A program made the position numbers and the translations under genes. From contig JAFGRD010000093.1 in assembly GCA_016935315.1 (NCBI GenBank), forward strand, positions 1 through 64,000: a DNA stretch of 64,000 bases, given 5' to 3'. Of the stretch, positions 8,222-57,596 are shown in pieces. The stretch's first letter is position 1. Each line of letters opens with the position of its first letter. A model generated the notes under the pieces. It was not told the origin of the DNA and ran no database searches. It saw nothing but the letters and a program-made list of their open reading frames with translations. Source of the stretch: Pirellulales bacterium (GTDB lineage: Bacteria > Planctomycetota > Planctomycetia > Pirellulales > Thermoguttaceae).

Positions 8222-8301
8222 AGGGCAAGCGTTATGGTCAGAAAGGCGCCTGTACCGCCTTTCCACCCATAAGAATGCCCAACCCATTCTCTTGCGAGTC
8301 C
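8222..8301 (+). repeat. Dispersed repeat family 2, copy 1
   Basis: 80 bp running from GGGCAAGCGTTATGG to CTTGCGAGTCC. It aligns along its whole length with 24851-24971, except that the latter has about 41 bp inserted. The core AAGAATGCCCAAC is shared with shorter copies at 15763 and 33163. No open frame or transposase is linked to it. Confidence 0.7.
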
Positions 8302-12438: not shown

Positions 12439-12447
12439 CCCGACCCT

Positions 12448-12548
12448 ATTGATGTTTGCATTGTGAATGATCCAGGCCGACCAACGGGAGGCCGGACAGG
12501 TCGGCCTCCCGTTGGTCGGCCTCGCGCGTTGAGTGTGCAAGCGTCGAC
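12448..12548 (+). repeat. 101-bp palindromic element, family 1, copy A
   Basis: Begins ATTGATGTTTGCA and ends with the imperfect inverted repeat TGCAAGCGTCGAC. Inside is a perfect 20-bp stem (12475-12494 with 12502-12521) closed by a 7-nt loop. It lies 9 bp behind the aldolase-like stop codon, so it may act as a terminator or 3' stabiliser. Full copies also occur at 39920-40020 and 53859-53959. Confidence 0.85.
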
Positions 12549-15707: not shown

Positions 15708-15738
15708 ATTGGTGTTTGCATCGTGAATGATCCAGGTC
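15708..15738 (+). repeat. 101-bp element family 1, partial copy B (left half)
   Basis: ATTGGTGTTTGCATCGTG and GAATGATCCAGG match the left end of copies A and C. The sequence then diverges and runs after 24 bp into a fragment of repeat family 2 (15763-15790). Confidence 0.75.
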
Positions 15739-15762
15739 GCTGCACCTCCTTGCACATTCATC

Positions 15763-15790
15763 GATGCCCAACTTGTTCTTTTGCGAGTCC
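15763..15790 (+). repeat. Dispersed repeat family 2, short copy
   Basis: GATGCCCAACTTGTTCTTTT followed by GCGAGTCC, identical over 26 bp to the end of the copy at 24851-24971. It lies directly ahead of the sulfotransferase start codon (15796), so it may supply part of that gene's leader. Confidence 0.65.
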
Positions 15791-24850: not shown

Positions 24851-24971
24851 GGGTAGGCGCTATGGCCGGAAAGGCGTCTGCACCGCCCTTCCTCTTTCCT
24901 ATAGGCCTAAGTGCCGTTTTTTCAGAAAGGGCAGAGCCATAAGAATGCCCAACTTGTTCTTTTGCGAGTCC
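24851..24971 (+). repeat. Dispersed repeat family 2, long copy
   Basis: 121 bp, from GGGTAGGCGCTATGG to TTTTGCGAGTCC. Compared with 8222-8301 it has about 41 extra bp in the middle, flanked by CTTTC and GAAAG and containing CTATAGGCCTAA and a T6 run. A similar CTATAGGCCT plus T7 motif is at 52727-52749. Confidence 0.7.
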
Positions 24972-39915: not shown

Positions 39916-39919
39916 GATT

Positions 39920-40020
39920 ATTGATGTTTGCATTGTGAATGATCCAGGCCAACCAACGAGAGGCCGGACAAGTCGGGCTCCCGTTGTTCGCCCTCGCGCA
40001 TTGAGTGTGCAAACGTCAAT
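39920..40020 (+). repeat. 101-bp palindromic element, family 1, copy C
   Basis: Starts ATTGATGTTTGCA and ends TGCAAACGTCAAT, a 13-bp terminal inverted repeat with one mismatch. The internal stem present in copy A is degraded here by several mismatches. Same length and orientation as copy A; located 4 bp behind the epimerase stop codon. Confidence 0.85.
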
Positions 40021-40626: not shown

Positions 40627-43600
40627 CTACGGCTGGTCGTCCTGCCGGCCCTGTTCGCCCGGGGGCGGCGTCTGTTGCGGTGGGGGCGGACTGGCGGCCG
40701 CGTCGTCGGGCCCTTCGGCCGGTGGCCCGGCCGGCGGGATCTGGGCCATTTCTTTCGGCCCGCTTTCCGGCACGGCGTGCTGCTTGGCTTCGGCAGCCTG
40801 CGGCGGAGCCTCCACCGGCGGGCCGTCCGCGGAAGCCGGCAACTGGGCCTGCTCGGCCACGGTGGCCTGGGGCGGTGTTTCTTGCGGTGTCTCGACCTCT
40901 TGGGGCGTTCCCACCTCTTCCGGCGTCTTAACTTCTGGGGAACTCTCGACCTGTTCCGGCGTCTTGGTCTCTTGCGGCTCAGGCTTGGCCTTGGGCTTTT
41001 TGGGTTGCTTCTTCTTGGCCTGGCGGCTGTTGGGCTCGTCGTCGTGTTGCTGATTCTGGAAGAACTGGGCCAGGTCGCCGAAAGTCCGCATCGGCTCCTT
41101 GCCGGTTTTCATGGCGTCGGTGATGGGCACAATCGGTTTGGGCGGGGCCTTGGGGCGGTATGTCGGTCTGGGCGGCCCCTTGCCTCGGGGCGGGCGCCTG
41201 CCGCCGGGGGCGGTCCGGCCTTGCGACGGGCCCTTCGGCCGGGGACGACGCGACTCGCCGGCGGCGCGCGACTTCTCGCCGCGCGGCCCACCCCGGTCGG
41301 AGCGGCCCTCGGCGCGGCCTTTTCCGTCGCCGGCCTTTTCGTCACGGTGTTGGCGGCGGGGGCGCTCGGAGCCGGGTTGGATCATCGTCAGCGAGACGCG
41401 ACGCCGCTGCTTGTCGACCTCCAGCACCCAGACCTTGACGATGTCGCCCACGGCAACCAGGTCGTGCGGATCGCGGATGAAGCGGTCGGCCAGTTGGCTA
41501 ACGTGGACCAGGCCGCTGTCGTGCATGCCGATGTCGACGAAGGCCCCGAAATCGACCACGTTGAGCACGGTCCCGGTCAGCTCCATGCCCGGCTCGAGGT
41601 CCTCCAGCTTCAGCACCCCCTGTTTGAAGACCGGCGCGGGCAGGTCTTCGCGCGGGTCGCGTCCCGGGCGGGCGAACTGTGCGAGGATGTCCTTTAGGGT
41701 AAGGACACCTATCTCCAGCTCTTTGGCCATTTCGTCCAGATCGACCTCGGCCACCTGTTTCGCCAGGTCGGCGGTCGCTTCCTTGTTGGACAGATCCGCC
41801 GGCGTGCGTCCCAGTTTCGCCAGCAGCCGCTGCGTGGCGTCGTAGCTTTCCGGATGGATCCAGGTCGCGTCCAGGGGGTTTTCGCCGGAGGCGATCTTCA
41901 GGAACCCGACCGCCTGGACGAAGGTGGCCTCGCCGAAGCCGGGCACCTCGCGGAGCTGTTGGCGGCTGCGGAAGGGGCCCAGTTGGTGCCGCCGCTCGTA
42001 AACCCGGCGGGCGGTCAACTGGTTCAGCCCGGAAACGTATCGCAGCAAGGAGGGGCTGGCCGTGTTGACGTCCACGCCCACGTAGTTGACGCACGACTCA
42101 ACCACTTCGTCGAGCGAGGTGCGCAGATGCTTGGCTTTGACGTCGTGTTGATAAAGCCCCACGCCGATATTGGCCGCGTCGATTTTGACCAGCTCGCTCA
42201 AGGGGTCCTGCAGGCGGCGGCCGATGGAGATCGCCCCGCGAAGGCTGGCGTCGTAGCCGGGGAACTCCTCGCGGCCGACGTGGCTGGTGGAATAGACGCT
42301 GGCCCCGGCCTCGTTGACGATCACGTAGGCCACGTTGCGGTCTTTCAACTGGTCGGCGACCAACTCGGAGAAGAAATCCTCGCACTCACGACAGGCGGTG
42401 CCGTTGCCGATGGCCACCACCGAAAGCTGGAACCGGTCGATCAGCTCGATTACCTTTCGCCGGGCCTGTTCTCGGCGTTCCGGCTTGCCGATCAGATAAA
42501 TCACGCCCTTTTCGAGCATGTTGCCGAACTGGTCCAACGCGGCCAGCTTGCAGCCGCTCTTGTAGCCCGGGTCGACCGCCAACACGCGACGGTCGTGAAC
42601 CGGCGGCTGCAACAGCAGATTGCGGAGGTTCTTGGCGAAGACGCCCACCGCGTGGGCCTCCGCCCGATCGGTCAGCTCGCGGCGGATCTCCCGCTCGAGG
42701 CTGGGCAGAATCAGGCGGTTCAGGGCGTCCCGGGCACAACCGCGCAGGTAGTCGGCATGGGGATGGTCGGCCGGGACGAGCATCTCGTCGAGCACCTGGT
42801 ACATCGCCTCGACGTCCAACTCGATCTTCACCCGTAAAACCTTGGCCCGTTCGCCCCGGTTGATGGCTAAGACCCGATGGGGCGGGATCTTCTTGACCTC
42901 CTCGCTGAAGTCGAAGTAGTCCAGGTAGGCCTTGATCCTTTGCTGCTCGATCCGCTTCTTCTTCTGCTCCCGCCGGTTGATCTTCTGCTTGGGTTTGGTC
43001 TGCGTCGGTGGAGCCTTGGCGGCGCGCACCGGCTTGGGCGCCGGCGGAGGCTCTGGCGGCGGGGATTCGGCGGGCGGCAATTCGGTGGGCGGGCTCTCTG
43101 CCGATGGAGCCGGTGTCGCTTCCGCGGGTTCCGACGGAGGCTCACCGAGATTGGCCGCCGGGTCCCCGCCAGGGTTGCCCGGGGGGTTGTCTGTTGGATT
43201 ACCCGTTGGCTTCTCCGTTGGATTGCCCGCTGGGTCGTCCGCAGCCTCGTCTGCTGGGTTGTCTGTTGAGTTGCTTGGGTTGGTTGGGTTGTTGTCTGTT
43301 GGGTTGCTTGTATTGGTTGCCGGCTCGCCCGCGTGGTTTTCGGTGTTTTCGGCGGGCAGGGAAGACCCCGCGGGTTCGTTGCCGACCTCGTTGGGCCGTT
43401 CCGACTCGGGCGGCGTCTCGGGAGCTTCTGCTTCGGGCGGCGTTTCGGGAGCTTTCCCCTCGGGCGGCGTCTCGGGAGCTTTTGCTTCGGGCGGCGTTTC
43501 GGGAGCTTCCCCCTCGGGCGGCGTCTCGGGAGCTTCTGCCTCGGGCGGCGTCCGGGGCGCTTTTGCCTCGAGTTTTTCAGCCTTGGCCGCTGGGGGCTTG

Positions 43601-52810: not shown

Positions 52811-53863
52811 ATGCTCCAGCGTCTCTTCCATTACTTCAGCGCCGACCTGGCGGTCGATCTGGGCACCGCCAACACGCGGATCGGCGTCGTCGGTGAAGGG
52901 TTGGTGCTCGACGAGCCTTCGGTGGTTGCCGTCGCCGAGGGCAACGGCCGCGTGCTTTCGGGCGGCTGCGCGGTCGGACACATGGCCAAACAGATGCAAG
53001 GCCGCACCCCCGAGTCGATCTCGGTCGTCCGCCCCCTGGCCGACGGCGTGGTGGCCGACTTCCAGCTCTGCGAGGCGATGCTCCGCTATTTCCTCCACAA
53101 GGCCCAGCCGTCGGGATTCCGCCGCAAGCCCCGCGTGTTGGTCGCCGTGCCCGCACGGATTACGCCGGTCGAGAAGCGGGCCGTCTTCAACAGCACCCAG
53201 CGGGCCGGCGCCCGGCAGGTCTGGCTGACGACCGAAGCCAAAGCGGCCGCCATCGGCGTCGGGCTGCCGATCGCCGAGCCGGTGGCCAGCATGGTCTGCG
53301 ACATCGGCGGGGGAACCACCGAAACGGCCGTGCTGAGCCTGGCCGACACCGTCTCGGCCCGGTCGATCCGCACCGGCGGCGATGCGATGGACCAGGCGAT
53401 CGCTGATTATCTGCGGAGGCACTACAGCCTGCGGATTGGGCTGCCCGCCGCCGAACGCCTGCGGATCGACCTCGGAAGCGCCTATCCGCTGGAGGAGGAG
53501 CAGGTCGAAGAGATCAGCGGCGTGGACATGATCAGCGGGCTGCCCCGCAAGGCGACCGTGACCAGCGAGGAGGTTCGCCAGGCCCTGGAAGACCCGCTGC
53601 AACGGATCGTCGAATCGATCAAGAGCACCTTGGACGGCTGTAGCCCCGATCTGGCCGCCGATCTGGTCGACACGGGGCTGGTGCTCTGCGGCGGCGGCTC
53701 GCTGTTGCGGCGGATCGATCGCTTCCTCGGGGAACAGACGGGGCTGCCGGTTCGCGTGGCATCCGAGCCCCGGGCGGCCGTCGCCCAGGGGATGTTGATT
53801 TGCCTGGAACAGTTCGAGCGATGGCGGCCGTCGCTGCAGTCGAGCGATGAGGACGTTTATTGA
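52811..53863 (+). CDS. mreB: Rod shape-determining protein MreB
   Basis: 350 residues. Actin-fold motifs: DLAVDLGTANTRIGVVGEGL with a following LDEPSVVAV, phosphate 2 VCDIGGGTTETAVLSL (about 163) and adenosine LVLCGGGSLLRRIDRFL (about 293). MreB polymers organise lateral cell-wall synthesis with MreC, MreD, RodA and PBP2. An amphipathic N-terminus (MLQRLFHYFSADL) may bind membrane. The last codons and stop (53861-53863) lie inside the 101-bp element 53859-53959, so the C-terminus may have been set by insertion of that element. Confidence 0.95.
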   Translation: MLQRLFHYFSADLAVDLGTANTRIGVVGEGLVLDEPSVVAVAEGNGRVLSGGCAVGHMAKQMQGRTPESISVVRPLADGVVADFQLCEAMLRYFLHKAQPSGFRRKPRVLVAVPARITPVEKRAVFNSTQRAGARQVWLTTEAKAAAIGVGLPIAEPVASMVCDIGGGTTETAVLSLADTVSARSIRTGGDAMDQAIADYLRRHYSLRIGLPAAERLRIDLGSAYPLEEEQVEEISGVDMISGLPRKATVTSEEVRQALEDPLQRIVESIKSTLDGCSPDLAADLVDTGLVLCGGGSLLRRIDRFLGEQTGLPVRVASEPRAAVAQGMLICLEQFERWRPSLQSSDEDVY

Positions 53864-53959
53864 CGCTTGCACACTCCATGCGCGAGGGCGACCCACGGGA
53901 GCCCGACTTGTCCGGCCTCCCGTGGGTCGGCCTGGATCATCCACAATGCAAACACCAAT
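53859..53959 (-). repeat. 101-bp palindromic element, family 1, copy D, spanning the mreB-mreC junction
   Basis: Inverse orientation to copies A and C: begins ATTGACGCTTGCAC and ends AATGCAAACACCAAT. It has the same 101-bp length and an imperfect central stem (53895-53930 region). It contains the mreB stop codon (53861-53863) and the mreC start codon (53946-53948). Confidence 0.88.
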
Positions 53960-54926
53960 AGGACTCGCACCGAAAGCCGTGCAATCGCACCACCACCGGA
54001 CCGATCGATGGACTTCCCCGGCCGTGGTCTTGGCGATCGGGCTGGTGCTCGCGTTGGTGTTGGCCGTGTTGCCTCGACAGTTCAGTGGCTGGATCCGCGA
54101 CGGGGTGGCCGCGGTGCTGAAGCCGGGGCAGGTTGTCTCGCTGCGGTTGGGCCGGCAGAGCGAGCGTGCGGTCGCTTGGACCCGGGCCCATTTCCAAGCG
54201 GCCTCCCGACTGGTCGAGGCCGAACGGCAAGTGCAGGAGCTGAAGCGGGAGAATCAACAACTGGCCGGCGAGCTGGTGGCCGCGAGTCTGCAGCCGGTCT
54301 CGCCTCGCCAAGACGCCGACGAAGACGCCGACGCCTCGCGGCTTTTGCGGGCACGCTGCGTCTCGGCTCGCGTGCTCGGCCGCCAGGCACGGGCCTTCCT
54401 GGCTCGCCATCACCTGTTGGACGTCGGCACGGCCGCCGGCGTGCAGCCGGAGGCCTGGGTGGTGGCTGCCCCGGCGGTGATCGACCGCGGCCGCGACGCC
54501 GAGCTGCAGCCCGGACAGCTCGTGCTCCACGGCCGCCGGGTTTGGGGAAAGATCGTTCAACTCGGCGCGCAGACCAGCGCGGTCCGCGCGGTCACCGAGC
54601 CGGGCTATCGCGACCTGGTGGCCATTGGAAATCCTTCCGGTCCCCAAGGCATGGTCGAGGGCACCGGCGAGCCGCTGGCGCGGATCCGGCTCGTCGAGGC
54701 GACCGAGCCGGTCTCGATCGGCGACGCGGTCTATACGGCCGGCCAAGGGGTGCTGCCGGCACCGCTGTTGTATGGCCACGTCGTTCGCCTCCAGCGGCCC
54801 GTCGGCGGCCACTGGGAAATCTGGATGGAACCGGCCGTGGTCGGACCGCCGCAGCACGCCGCCGTGTTGAAGATCGAGCTCAACCCGTTGCGGACGGCAC
54901 AGCAGAAAACGGCCCGGAGTCAGTAG
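53946..54926 (+). CDS. mreC: Rod shape-determining protein MreC
   Basis: 326 residues from ATG 53946. After a short cytoplasmic part comes one membrane helix (PAVVLAIGLVLALVLAVL, about 21-38), a coiled coil (AASRLVEAERQVQELKREN) and the paired beta-barrel MreC core (ARVLGRQARAFLARHHLL, GQLVLHGRRVWGKIVQLG). The start codon is within the 101-bp element and its leader (GGATCATCCACA) has only a weak ribosome site. In-frame extension to 53847 would overlap mreB coding sequence and is less likely. MreC links MreB to PBP2 on the periplasmic side. Confidence 0.88.
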   Translation: MQTPIGLAPKAVQSHHHRTDRWTSPAVVLAIGLVLALVLAVLPRQFSGWIRDGVAAVLKPGQVVSLRLGRQSERAVAWTRAHFQAASRLVEAERQVQELKRENQQLAGELVAASLQPVSPRQDADEDADASRLLRARCVSARVLGRQARAFLARHHLLDVGTAAGVQPEAWVVAAPAVIDRGRDAELQPGQLVLHGRRVWGKIVQLGAQTSAVRAVTEPGYRDLVAIGNPSGPQGMVEGTGEPLARIRLVEATEPVSIGDAVYTAGQGVLPAPLLYGHVVRLQRPVGGHWEIWMEPAVVGPPQHAAVLKIELNPLRTAQQKTARSQ

Positions 54927-54989
54927 CGACGTTTCACGGGATCTGGACGATCGCAAAACGCCCGCCGGGGCGAAACGGAGTCACGGCCC

Positions 54990-55499
54990 ATGCGATTCGT
55001 GTGGTTGACACTCGCTGTCTATCTGGCGGCCGTGGCCGAGACGTCGCTGATCGACGTGCTGCGGATCGGCGAGGTGACCCCCGACCTGCTGGCCCTGGTC
55101 GCCGTCGTGTGGTTGCTGACGTCGGGCAGCCCGCGGGCCTTTCTGGGGGCCGGGGCGGTTGCCCTGGTGGGCGACCTGATTGCCCCGGGGCATCTCGGCG
55201 TGGGCATGGGCTGGATGCTGTTGGCCGGCTATGGGGTCGGCCGGCTCCGCGCCCGATTCCGCCTGGAGCATCTCGGCTGGCAAGTGCTCATCACGTTTGC
55301 CACCGTCGCCGCGTGGGCCGCCGCGGTCGGCGCGACCGGGCGGTTGATCGGAGACCTGTCGCTGGCCTGGTCGGCCGTCGTGCCACGCGCGCTGGGCGTC
55401 GGCCTTTACACGGCCGCCGTGGCACTTCCCGTGTGGATGGTCGTCGGGTGGATTCGCCAGCCGTTTCTCGCCCGAAAACGGAGGCTAGCGGAGTTCTGA
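54990..55499 (+). CDS. mreD: Rod shape-determining protein MreD
   Basis: 169 residues with four to five membrane helices: FVWLTLAVYLAAVAETSL, LLALVAVVWLLTSG, FLGAGAVALVGDLIAPG, AAWAAAVGATGRLIG and the final ALPVWMVVGWI. Sequence conservation of MreD is low; the call rests on length, topology and position between mreC (63 bp upstream) and the PBP2 gene (7 bp downstream), with the typical GDLIAPGHLGVGM loop. Confidence 0.85.
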   Translation: MRFVWLTLAVYLAAVAETSLIDVLRIGEVTPDLLALVAVVWLLTSGSPRAFLGAGAVALVGDLIAPGHLGVGMGWMLLAGYGVGRLRARFRLEHLGWQVLITFATVAAWAAAVGATGRLIGDLSLAWSAVVPRALGVGLYTAAVALPVWMVVGWIRQPFLARKRRLAEF

Positions 55500-55506
55500 G
55501 TCGCCC

Positions 55507-57561
55507 ATGCTGCACGACTGGCACCAATTCCACCTGGACGAGGCCGCCACGCCCGCCGTGGTCGATCCGCGGCGGCGGCTGCGACTCTGCCTGGCCGGTT
55601 TTCTGGTGCTGTTGCTGGTCGTGTTTTCCCGGCTGGTGCAGTTGGAGGTGACCCAGGGCTCGGCGTTTCGGGCCAAGGCGACCGAGCCGCTTAAGCGCGA
55701 GCGGAGTCTGCCGGGCGTGCGGGGCCGGATCCTGGCACACGACGGAACGGTGCTGGCCTGCGATCGGGAAATCCCCGCGCTGGCGGTGATGTACCGCTAT
55801 CTGCAGCAGCCGCCCGACCCACGCTGGCTCCGCACCATGGTCCGGCGACGCTTGTCGTCGGCCCAACGCAAAGACCCCGAACGCGTCGCCGCCGAAGAGG
55901 ACCGCCTGCGGCAACAGCGGAACGATCTGGCCCAACGGCTCGCGCGGCTCTGCGGCCTGTCGGCCGACGAATGGGCCCGCCGGGCAGCCCGCGTCCAGAG
56001 CCGCGTGGAGCGGATTGCCCAGAGCGTCCGCCGGCGTCGACGGGCCGACCTCACCGTGGCCGAAGAACTGGACTACCACGTGATGGTTGAAAACGTGCCG
56101 CTGGCGGTCGTGGCCGAGATCGAAGGGCTCCGCGAGCAATATCCGGGGGTGAAGATCCTCACGCGATCCCGGCGGGCCTATCCGTCCGGATCGCTGGCCG
56201 CCCACGTGCTGGGACACCTCGGCCCGGTGGCCGGAGACCGGCTCGACCAACCGGAGGCGGACTACGACGCGGACGAGCTGGTCGGAAAGACGGGCCTGGA
56301 ACGGCAATACGAGTCGCTGCTGCGGGGACGACGCGGCGTGGTTGTGGAGCTGACCGACCACGGCGGACGGATCCTCTCGACGTACCACCGCCTGGAGCCG
56401 GGCGCCGGCCGGGATCTGGTGCTCACGCTCAGCCCGCCGCTACAACGCGCGGCCGAGTCGCTCCTGGAAGCGGCGGTCCAACGTCGGGCCCTGCGCCGCC
56501 CGGACGACGAGCCGGCCGGCGGCGCCGTCGTGGTAATCGACGTCCATAGCGGGGCGGTGCGCGCGGCCGCCTCGGCGCCGCGTTTCGATCCGAACGTGTT
56601 CGTATCGGGCAAGGCGGAAGACCGGGCCGCGCTTTTGGGCGACGAGGCCCACCCGCTGTTCGACCGCGCCGTCCGCATGGCGATCCCGCCCGGCTCGGTG
56701 TTCAAGGTCGTCTCGGCCGTGGCCCTGCTCGAGGCCGCGGCCGTCGATCCGGACGAGCCGTTCTTCTGCCAGGGGTACTTGCACCAGCCCGACCGGCAGC
56801 GGTGCGCGATCTATCGCCGCACCGGGACCGGCCACGGCGAAGTGACCCTGAGCGACGCGCTGGCGCAAAGCTGCAACGTCTACTTCTTCCACCACGTCGA
56901 CGCGCTGGGGCCCGAGCCGCTGGCCGGTTGGGCAAGCCGCTTCGGCTTCGGCCGGACCACCGGCGTGGACCTGCCCTCCGAGGCCGACGGCAACCTGCCC
57001 CAGCCGGCAACCATCCAGCAGACGGCGGGCCATCGCTGGCGGCCGGGCGACACGCAATCGCTGGCCGTCGGGCAGGGCGGGCTGACGGCCACGCCGCTGC
57101 AAGTGGTCCGCATGATGGCGGCGATTGCCAACGGCGGCCGGCTGGTCACTCCGCACCTGGTCAGCGGCCTGGCGCTGCCGCAGCGGGCCGAGGACGCGGC
57201 CACGGCCGAGGACGACGCGGACGATCCGATCCGGATCGCGCCGCCGCGGCCCATCCCCGACCTCGGCGGCGAGACCATCGAAGCGATTCGCCAGGGTCTG
57301 CTCCGCGTGGTCTGCGACCCCCAGGGCACGGCCCACGCCACGGTCTATCTCGAAGGGGTTTCGGTGGCCGGCAAGACAGGCACGGCCGAGACCGGCGGCG
57401 GCCGCGGCGACCACGCCTGGTTTGCCGGCTACGTGCCGGCCGAGAAGCCCCGCTGGGCGATGGTCGTCGCCCTGGAGCACGCCGGCGACGCGGCCACGGC
57501 AGCCGGCCCGGTGGCCAAGCGCCTCGTGCTGCACATGCAACAATTGGGCATGCTCCCTTGA
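55507..57561 (+). CDS. mrdA: Penicillin-binding protein 2 (elongation transpeptidase)
   Basis: 684 residues. One N-terminal membrane helix (LCLAGFLVLLLVVFSRLVQL), the pedestal region with RGRILAHDGTVLACDREIPA, then the transpeptidase: SxxK in PPGSVFKVVSAVALL (Ser about 399), SxN in LAQSCNVYFFH and KTGT in SVAGKTGTAETGG. It cross-links new peptidoglycan in the elongation complex. The adjacent RodA glycosyltransferase gene, common at this position in many bacteria, is absent. The stop codon (57559-57561) lies inside a partial copy of the 101-bp element. Confidence 0.93.
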   Translation: MLHDWHQFHLDEAATPAVVDPRRRLRLCLAGFLVLLLVVFSRLVQLEVTQGSAFRAKATEPLKRERSLPGVRGRILAHDGTVLACDREIPALAVMYRYLQQPPDPRWLRTMVRRRLSSAQRKDPERVAAEEDRLRQQRNDLAQRLARLCGLSADEWARRAARVQSRVERIAQSVRRRRRADLTVAEELDYHVMVENVPLAVVAEIEGLREQYPGVKILTRSRRAYPSGSLAAHVLGHLGPVAGDRLDQPEADYDADELVGKTGLERQYESLLRGRRGVVVELTDHGGRILSTYHRLEPGAGRDLVLTLSPPLQRAAESLLEAAVQRRALRRPDDEPAGGAVVVIDVHSGAVRAAASAPRFDPNVFVSGKAEDRAALLGDEAHPLFDRAVRMAIPPGSVFKVVSAVALLEAAAVDPDEPFFCQGYLHQPDRQRCAIYRRTGTGHGEVTLSDALAQSCNVYFFHHVDALGPEPLAGWASRFGFGRTTGVDLPSEADGNLPQPATIQQTAGHRWRPGDTQSLAVGQGGLTATPLQVVRMMAAIANGGRLVTPHLVSGLALPQRAEDAATAEDDADDPIRIAPPRPIPDLGGETIEAIRQGLLRVVCDPQGTAHATVYLEGVSVAGKTGTAETGGGRGDHAWFAGYVPAEKPRWAMVVALEHAGDAATAAGPVAKRLVLHMQQLGMLP

Positions 57562-57596
57562 CGCGTGCACGCACAATGCGCGAGGGCGACCAACGG
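57557..57596 (-). repeat. 101-bp element family 1, partial copy E
   Basis: TTGACGCGTGCACGCACAAT followed by GCGCGAGGGCGACCAACGG matches the first 40 bp of copy D, in the same orientation. It overlaps the mrdA stop codon. The other half of the element is missing. Confidence 0.75.

Follow-up and report, generated by a model that had tools for sequence, protein, structure and literature searches.

The cell-shape gene mreB and its neighbor mreC in a Pirellulales bacterium (GenBank assembly GCA_016935315.1) meet within a copy of a dispersed repeat, which raises the question of how a repeat came to hold the end of one gene and an in-frame start codon of the next, and of what its presence means for the two proteins. 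The locus lies in a window of 64,000 nucleotides (contig JAFGRD010000093.1, positions 1 to 64,000, forward strand). A preliminary description of this window placed the repeat at 53859-53959, starting 2 bp before the mreB stop codon and ending 11 bp past an ATG at 53946, and these coordinates are correct. With the TA dinucleotides on both sides included, the features needed below are as follows.

52811..53863, + strand: mreB, 350 aa (Pfam PF06723, E 1.1e-120)
53861..53863, + strand: mreB stop TGA, from the TTGA end of the element; the codon TAT at 53858-53860 adds one Tyr
53858..53960, + strand: MITE copy, 103 bp with TA at both ends, for a net insertion of 101 bp
53858..53871, + strand: left end, TA duplication plus terminal inverted repeat, TTGACGCTTGCA
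53947..53960, - strand: right end, terminal inverted repeat with TA, reading TATTGGTGTTTGCA on the - strand
53888..53930, + strand: inner hairpin stem with a 7-nt loop in the predicted RNA fold
53847..53849, + strand: ATG overlapping the end of mreB, outside the element and in frame with mreC through it
53946..53948, + strand: ATG within the element, in frame with mreC, the start in the preliminary description
53979..53981, + strand: GTG just 3' of the element, where the current mreC frame has its first start codon in the rebuilt empty site
53946..54926, + strand: mreC read from the ATG of the element, 326 aa (359 aa from 53847; PF04085)

The element is an imperfect palindrome that spans the mreB-mreC junction, with a predicted RNA fold of -51.5 kcal/mol over its whole length (z -5.86). 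That the junction sequence is a repeat copy, as first described, was borne out by a DNA search of the bacterium's own draft genome (7,102,429 bases in 172 contigs), which returned 47 matches. Of these, 41 are places with 90-100% identity, the junction among them, and six are weak matches on the opposite strand of such places. These counts are minima, from 40 scored of 414 first-look candidates. Within the element, 29 other loci of the genome can be aligned to the junction copy with no gaps, and the best of the other copies are 95% identical to it.

The exact 14-bp end of the element, TATTGAYGYTTGCA, occurs at 214 sites in the genome, compared with 0 for the same pattern read backwards as a control. 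We characterized the family in a sample of 0.849 Mb, made up of 40 stretches of four contigs plus the window, and found 60 non-overlapping matches, 49 of them full-length and 45 of these 49 exactly 103 bp long. Extrapolation from the 49 copies gives about 410 full-length copies per genome. Family copies carry the terminal inverted repeats TTGAYGYTTGCA at both ends and TA at both ends; 27 of the 49 start with TATT and 27 end with AATA, with variation at the outermost bases in the rest. The base before the left TA is a pyrimidine in 46 of 49 copies and the base after the right TA a purine in 46 of 49, giving the target Y|TA|R. Among 119 genomes of the same taxonomic family, the exact end is found at 214 sites here and at no more than three in each of the other 118, and the burst of copies thus belongs to this genome. 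The window itself holds further full copies at 12447-12548 and 39919-40020 and a half copy at 15708-15739. At another locus of the own genome (C78:191091-191291, in L178), two copies stand head to tail with one common TA, an arrangement that would arise if one had landed at the other's end.

Comparison with relatives bears on the origin of the mreB stop codon. MreB is 350 aa long here and ends in DVY, while in 27 compared loci, out of 91 mreB loci of relatives and with three contigs apparently included twice, its length is 349 aa exactly in 18 cases and between 347 and 355 aa in the remaining nine. In one relative (L034) the protein ends SSDEDV-TAG, one codon earlier than here; other ends include SSDDEP-TAG (L032) and SSEEDV-TGA (L037). 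The element was absent from all 91 loci at an E-value of 0.01 (best 0.13), including one whose MreB also ends Tyr-TGA (L067) and which was checked individually. When the element and one TA are removed in silico, the rebuilt empty site reads GAC GTT TAG, that is DEDV-TAG as in L034, with GGACTCGCACC expected directly after the mreB TAG; this empty allele is a reconstruction, and the relatives searched included no genome of the same genus. The comparison of mreB ends with element-free relatives that the preliminary description had proposed thus came out in favor of its view that the repeat supplies the present mreB stop: the L034-type TAG lies one codon earlier, removal of the element restores DEDV-TAG, and all 91 loci lack the element. 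Its label of an essential operon is unproven. The closest named relatives of this MreB are from Pirellulales, and a strong MreB match was found in just 12 of 30 genomes in the search of relatives (own genome included), with the remainder showing weak similarity in longer ORFs; mreB is either patchy in the order or missing from drafts.

We consider it very probable that the junction arose by a single insertion of an IS630-type MITE into the TA of the mreB TAG stop. The target would have been the TA of TTAG, a YTAR site, and the insertion would have turned GTT-TAG into GTT-TAT-TGA, swapping the stop codon and adding one Tyr. Because both ends of the element begin with TTGA after the TA, the stop would be restored in either orientation. 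Mobilization was presumably by an IS630 family DDE transposase. For mreC, the insertion would have placed a structured stretch of 101 bp between the body of MreB and that of MreC.

The assignment to a new family of IS630-type MITEs, a kind of element already known, follows from its length of 103 bp, its high copy number, the terminal inverted repeats and TA duplication, and the lack of a transposase gene. The 2-bp TA duplication and the CTAG-like site preference (Y in 46/49, R in 46/49) are those of IS630/Tc1-mariner elements, and IS630, going by the title of a reference, reportedly prefers the TA in CTAG. Two other origins would account for some of the same features. A REP/REPIN-type palindrome moved by a RAYT would likewise be short, palindromic, abundant and near gene ends, and GTAG REPs are reported to give TAG stops to flanking ORFs (PMC3733652), yet the ends here are TTGA/TCAA with no GTAG or CGTC tag and the copies carry TA at both ends and sit at YTAR targets, which makes this origin most unlikely. 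An IS5-type MITE akin to MITEPsy1 is hardly more credible: MITEPsy1, at 100 nt and with a CTAG/YTAA target, is similar in length and target tetranucleotide but duplicates 4 nt (PMC3189936), whereas here TA alone can be duplicated because in most copies the left TA is followed by a T that belongs to the element.

We also compared the element with known systems. The closest in kind is RUP, a pneumococcal MITE of 107 bp with 108 copies that is thought to be moved by IS630-Spn1 (PMC2229807). Both have TA-containing targets, and the RUP ends resemble those of an IS630 family element. All six reading frames of RUP are described as containing stop codons (PMC2229807), in contrast to the element here, which is open in the mreC frame; no partner with matching ends was found here, and the sequence and phylum of RUP are different. 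IS630 family members such as ISY100 insert at TA and duplicate it (PMC2170065), as do Tc1-mariner elements and as is seen here, but the repeat has no transposase gene. The GTAG REPs are also small palindromes whose ends often give stop codons to flanking ORFs (PMC3733652), although here there is no GTAG tag, TA is duplicated and the stop is a TGA after a TAT codon. Nemis/Correia repeats, ERIC and Rickettsia palindromic elements are, by description, also repeats in or beside genes with RNA hairpins and in-frame fusions (PMC2229807). The TAT-TGA swap is therefore a variant of a known effect, in which repeat ends give their neighbors stop codons; the literature searched, available in part, contained no account of Pirellulales MITEs or of stop swapping by IS630-type MITEs.

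Across 296 genomes of the order, with at most three candidates scored per genome, at least 15 had a match to the element, and full-length copies outside its own genome occurred only in one genome of the same taxonomic family (G014). This genome has at least two full-length copies of 104 bp at 72 and 75% identity and one partial copy, with like ends, among the three scored of 23 first-look candidates. A genome from another family of the order (G040) carries a sister MITE that is also 104 bp long, with TATTGA...TCAATA ends and the common core AATGATCCAGGCCGACC, but differs in one half of the palindrome. There, every one of the 40 candidates scored, out of 134 at first look, was a match (at least 40 copies). 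At 12 loci of the same genome (L226-L237), the exact end was readable in nine, all nine of them with YTAR flanks.

Among 16 loci scanned for a mobilizing transposase, three hold IS630-type elements with TTGA-starting ends beside a TA: L209 in the own genome, with TA at the right side only, and L213 and L216 in relatives. DDE_3 matches were found in the IS630-type loci, and L209 and L213 also have helix-turn-helix domains. The ends of L209 match those of the element at 9 and 10 of 12 positions, making it the nearest candidate partner. None of the 16 loci has a transposase gene with the identical full terminal repeat, and inspection by eye of the first 100 of the 214 exact ends gave no facing pair 300-3000 bp apart. 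L210-L212, also considered as an autonomous partner, were set aside as they have partial matches only. The L209 element measures 1100 bp (959-2058); its DDE part is not in the frame of its helix-turn-helix part, and an ORF that begins upstream extends into the element.

We then asked of the sampled copies whether the loss and replacement of a stop codon at mreB is special or ordinary. Using genes called with a home-made caller on the 172-contig draft (coding fraction 0.87-0.90), we found 13 gene 3' ends, in 12 of the 49 elements, that stop exactly at the TGA of the element (TAA in one). Taking the left TA as it stands, the empty site reads as a stop in 8 of the 13. The purine after the far TA that an ancestral TAA or TAG needs is present in 11 of the 13, allowing for decayed TA ends; the remaining two have a C in this place, would not have been stops and do not fit. 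Ten of the 12 other genes that end in an element were scanned against Pfam, and seven have a family: endonuclease III-like, aldo/keto reductase, SpoIIE-like, prolyl oligopeptidase, heparinase-like, methyltransferase and dihydroxy-acid dehydratase-like. At one locus (C65:135239-135341; 15239-15341 of L208), a single element ends two convergent genes, and its empty site reads as two overlapping stop codons on opposite strands. The dihydroxy-acid dehydratase-like gene ends in this element, and in a second homolog comparison on the stop swap, made with this gene, its C-terminus varies among relatives.

Stop codons as a specially sought target were considered and rejected. The sample holds 346 free YTAR sites in coding sequence, 236 in intergenic sequence and 57 at stops, from which 9.1 elements would be expected at stops, compared with 12 of 47 observed (P 0.19; 10 of 47 if the purine is required), and only 2 of the 49 elements are inside a gene. 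Relative to the sites available, insertion at stop codons is thus about as frequent as insertion between genes, and insertion within genes is rare. With a count this near the expectation from free YTAR sites, the mreB-mreC junction does not appear as specially selected; the stop swap seems to be tolerated and not sought, and the gene-ending copies look like a side effect of the insertion preference of the repeat. Insertions into stop codons would persist, given that either end immediately supplies a new stop, and selection would purge those within genes. The orientation of genes around 47 elements (27 co-directional, 15 divergent and 5 convergent) follows that of the available YTAR sites (173, 80 and 27, respectively). 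A terminator-like preference for convergent genes was likewise rejected, with 5 of 47 observed and about 4.5 predicted by the YTAR sites. The called start of a neighboring gene falls inside the element in 4 of 49 cases.

At the other side of the junction, the start of mreC is less clear. The MreC barrel is found by Pfam at an E-value of 9.2e-14, and the ORF starting at 53946 also gives a PF04085 match. Five relatives in which Pfam confirms MreC (L034, L035, L064, L068 and L072) have the first ATG of the ORF 8-14 nt upstream of the mreB end, which is the position of the ATG at 53847 here; the context of this overlapping ATG is ATGAGGACGTGTAG in L034 and ATGAGGACGTTTA in the own genome. From 53847 the frame is open across the whole element into MreC, adding 34 element codons. 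The preliminary description had the repeat supplying the start and leader of mreC, and it does contain an in-frame ATG at 53946, but initiation there is unproven and an ATG of the relatives' type survives outside it. The predicted N-terminus reads MRTFIDACTLHAR.. with the element-coded extension, MQTPIGLAPK.. from 53946 and MQSHHHR.. from 53979. On our judgement, translation from the old overlapping ATG at 53847, with the 34 added codons, is the most probable, and is put forward tentatively; initiation at the element's own ATG is a less probable alternative, and a start at the GTG at 53979 or later is slightly less probable again. Codon usage between the element and the membrane segment, with scores of -1.6, -0.9 and -2.6, did not reveal the old mreC frame, and the home-made gene caller places the start at 54024, 3' of the element, a call that reflects codon usage only.

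Whether the element has since acquired a role at this junction can be viewed in two ways. It may now be coding, such that MreC would begin at the ATG at 53847 and carry 34 element-derived residues before its membrane segment, in the manner of Rickettsia palindromic elements. The placement of this ATG as in the five relatives and the frame open through the entire element into MreC speak for such a role, but an in-frame path has a chance of about one in three and the frame is open in the family consensus too, by inspection. In addition, the same ATG is one base out of the mreC frame in the rebuilt empty site, and since the net insertion of 101 bp is not a multiple of three, an ancestor starting mreC at 53847 would need a later change of 1 nt. 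We infer either that such a compensating change came after the insertion or that mreC had a start further downstream in the ancestor. In others of the 27 mreB loci compared, the next ORF begins past the mreB stop or is a different gene. With these points on both sides, we regard a coding role as conceivable, if somewhat doubtful. The other view holds that the element is kept for hairpin regulation of the mre genes, lowering or uncoupling mreC translation, being cut, or terminating transcription, as has been proposed for nemis/Correia repeats. The very stable predicted RNA hairpin agrees with it, as does the separation by the element of two ORFs that overlap in the five relatives. However, covariation gave no sign of RNA function above shuffles. 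Over 70 distinct 103-bp copies, standard pairs make up 91% of paired cells, but there are 11 double-change cells compared with a shuffled mean of 10.4, which indicates that the copies are decaying with no selection on the fold to be seen. An Rfam scan of 53000-55000 gave no match at E-values up to 1, and gene orientation follows the available YTAR sites. These results, none of them a test on the copy at mre, argue against regulation and leave it improbable. The uncoupling of mreB and mreC by the hairpin, raised in the preliminary description, is a possibility only. The predicted fold places the mreB TGA on one side of the lower stem and the ATG at 53946 on the other; a ribosome that terminates at mreB could thus melt this stem and gain access to the ATG, which would keep the coupling and not break it.

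Joining these results, we propose, as an uncertain and rather unlikely whole, a stop-swapping transposon that has hit on the order of 100 stops (extrapolated from 12/49) and a rod-complex protein, MreC, whose N-terminal stretch includes 34 transposon-written residues, the old overlapping start having been left in frame, and whose translation is still coupled to that of mreB. If this is true, stop codons would be nearly harmless landing sites, a TAA or TAG that is hit becoming TAT-TGA. The rule for the junction would be simple, in that a repeat which inserts at TA and has TTGA ends provides a new stop for the one it disrupts, and the many genes ending Tyr-TGA inside the repeat that it predicts genome-wide are present in the sample. 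For annotation, gene ends and starts beside such repeats would have to be taken as young, and the locus would offer a natural case for asking if overlapping, possibly coupled genes tolerate an intervening 101-bp hairpin.

Several other repeats were observed in the window. A decayed left half of the element at 57558-57596 gives the stop (CCT-TGA) of the PBP2-like transpeptidase gene at 55507-57561, and two genes of the mre cluster, mreB and the PBP2-like gene, thus end in family copies. A second dispersed repeat, with the varying core TTCTTTTGCGAGTCC, is found at 8267-8301, 15756-15790 and 24937-24971; outside these places, it also lies directly left of element copies in L007 (CTGTTCTTTTGCGAGTCC) and, less exactly, in L016. 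At 43379-43594, the window has 27-bp tandem repeats, listed as six overlapping copies.
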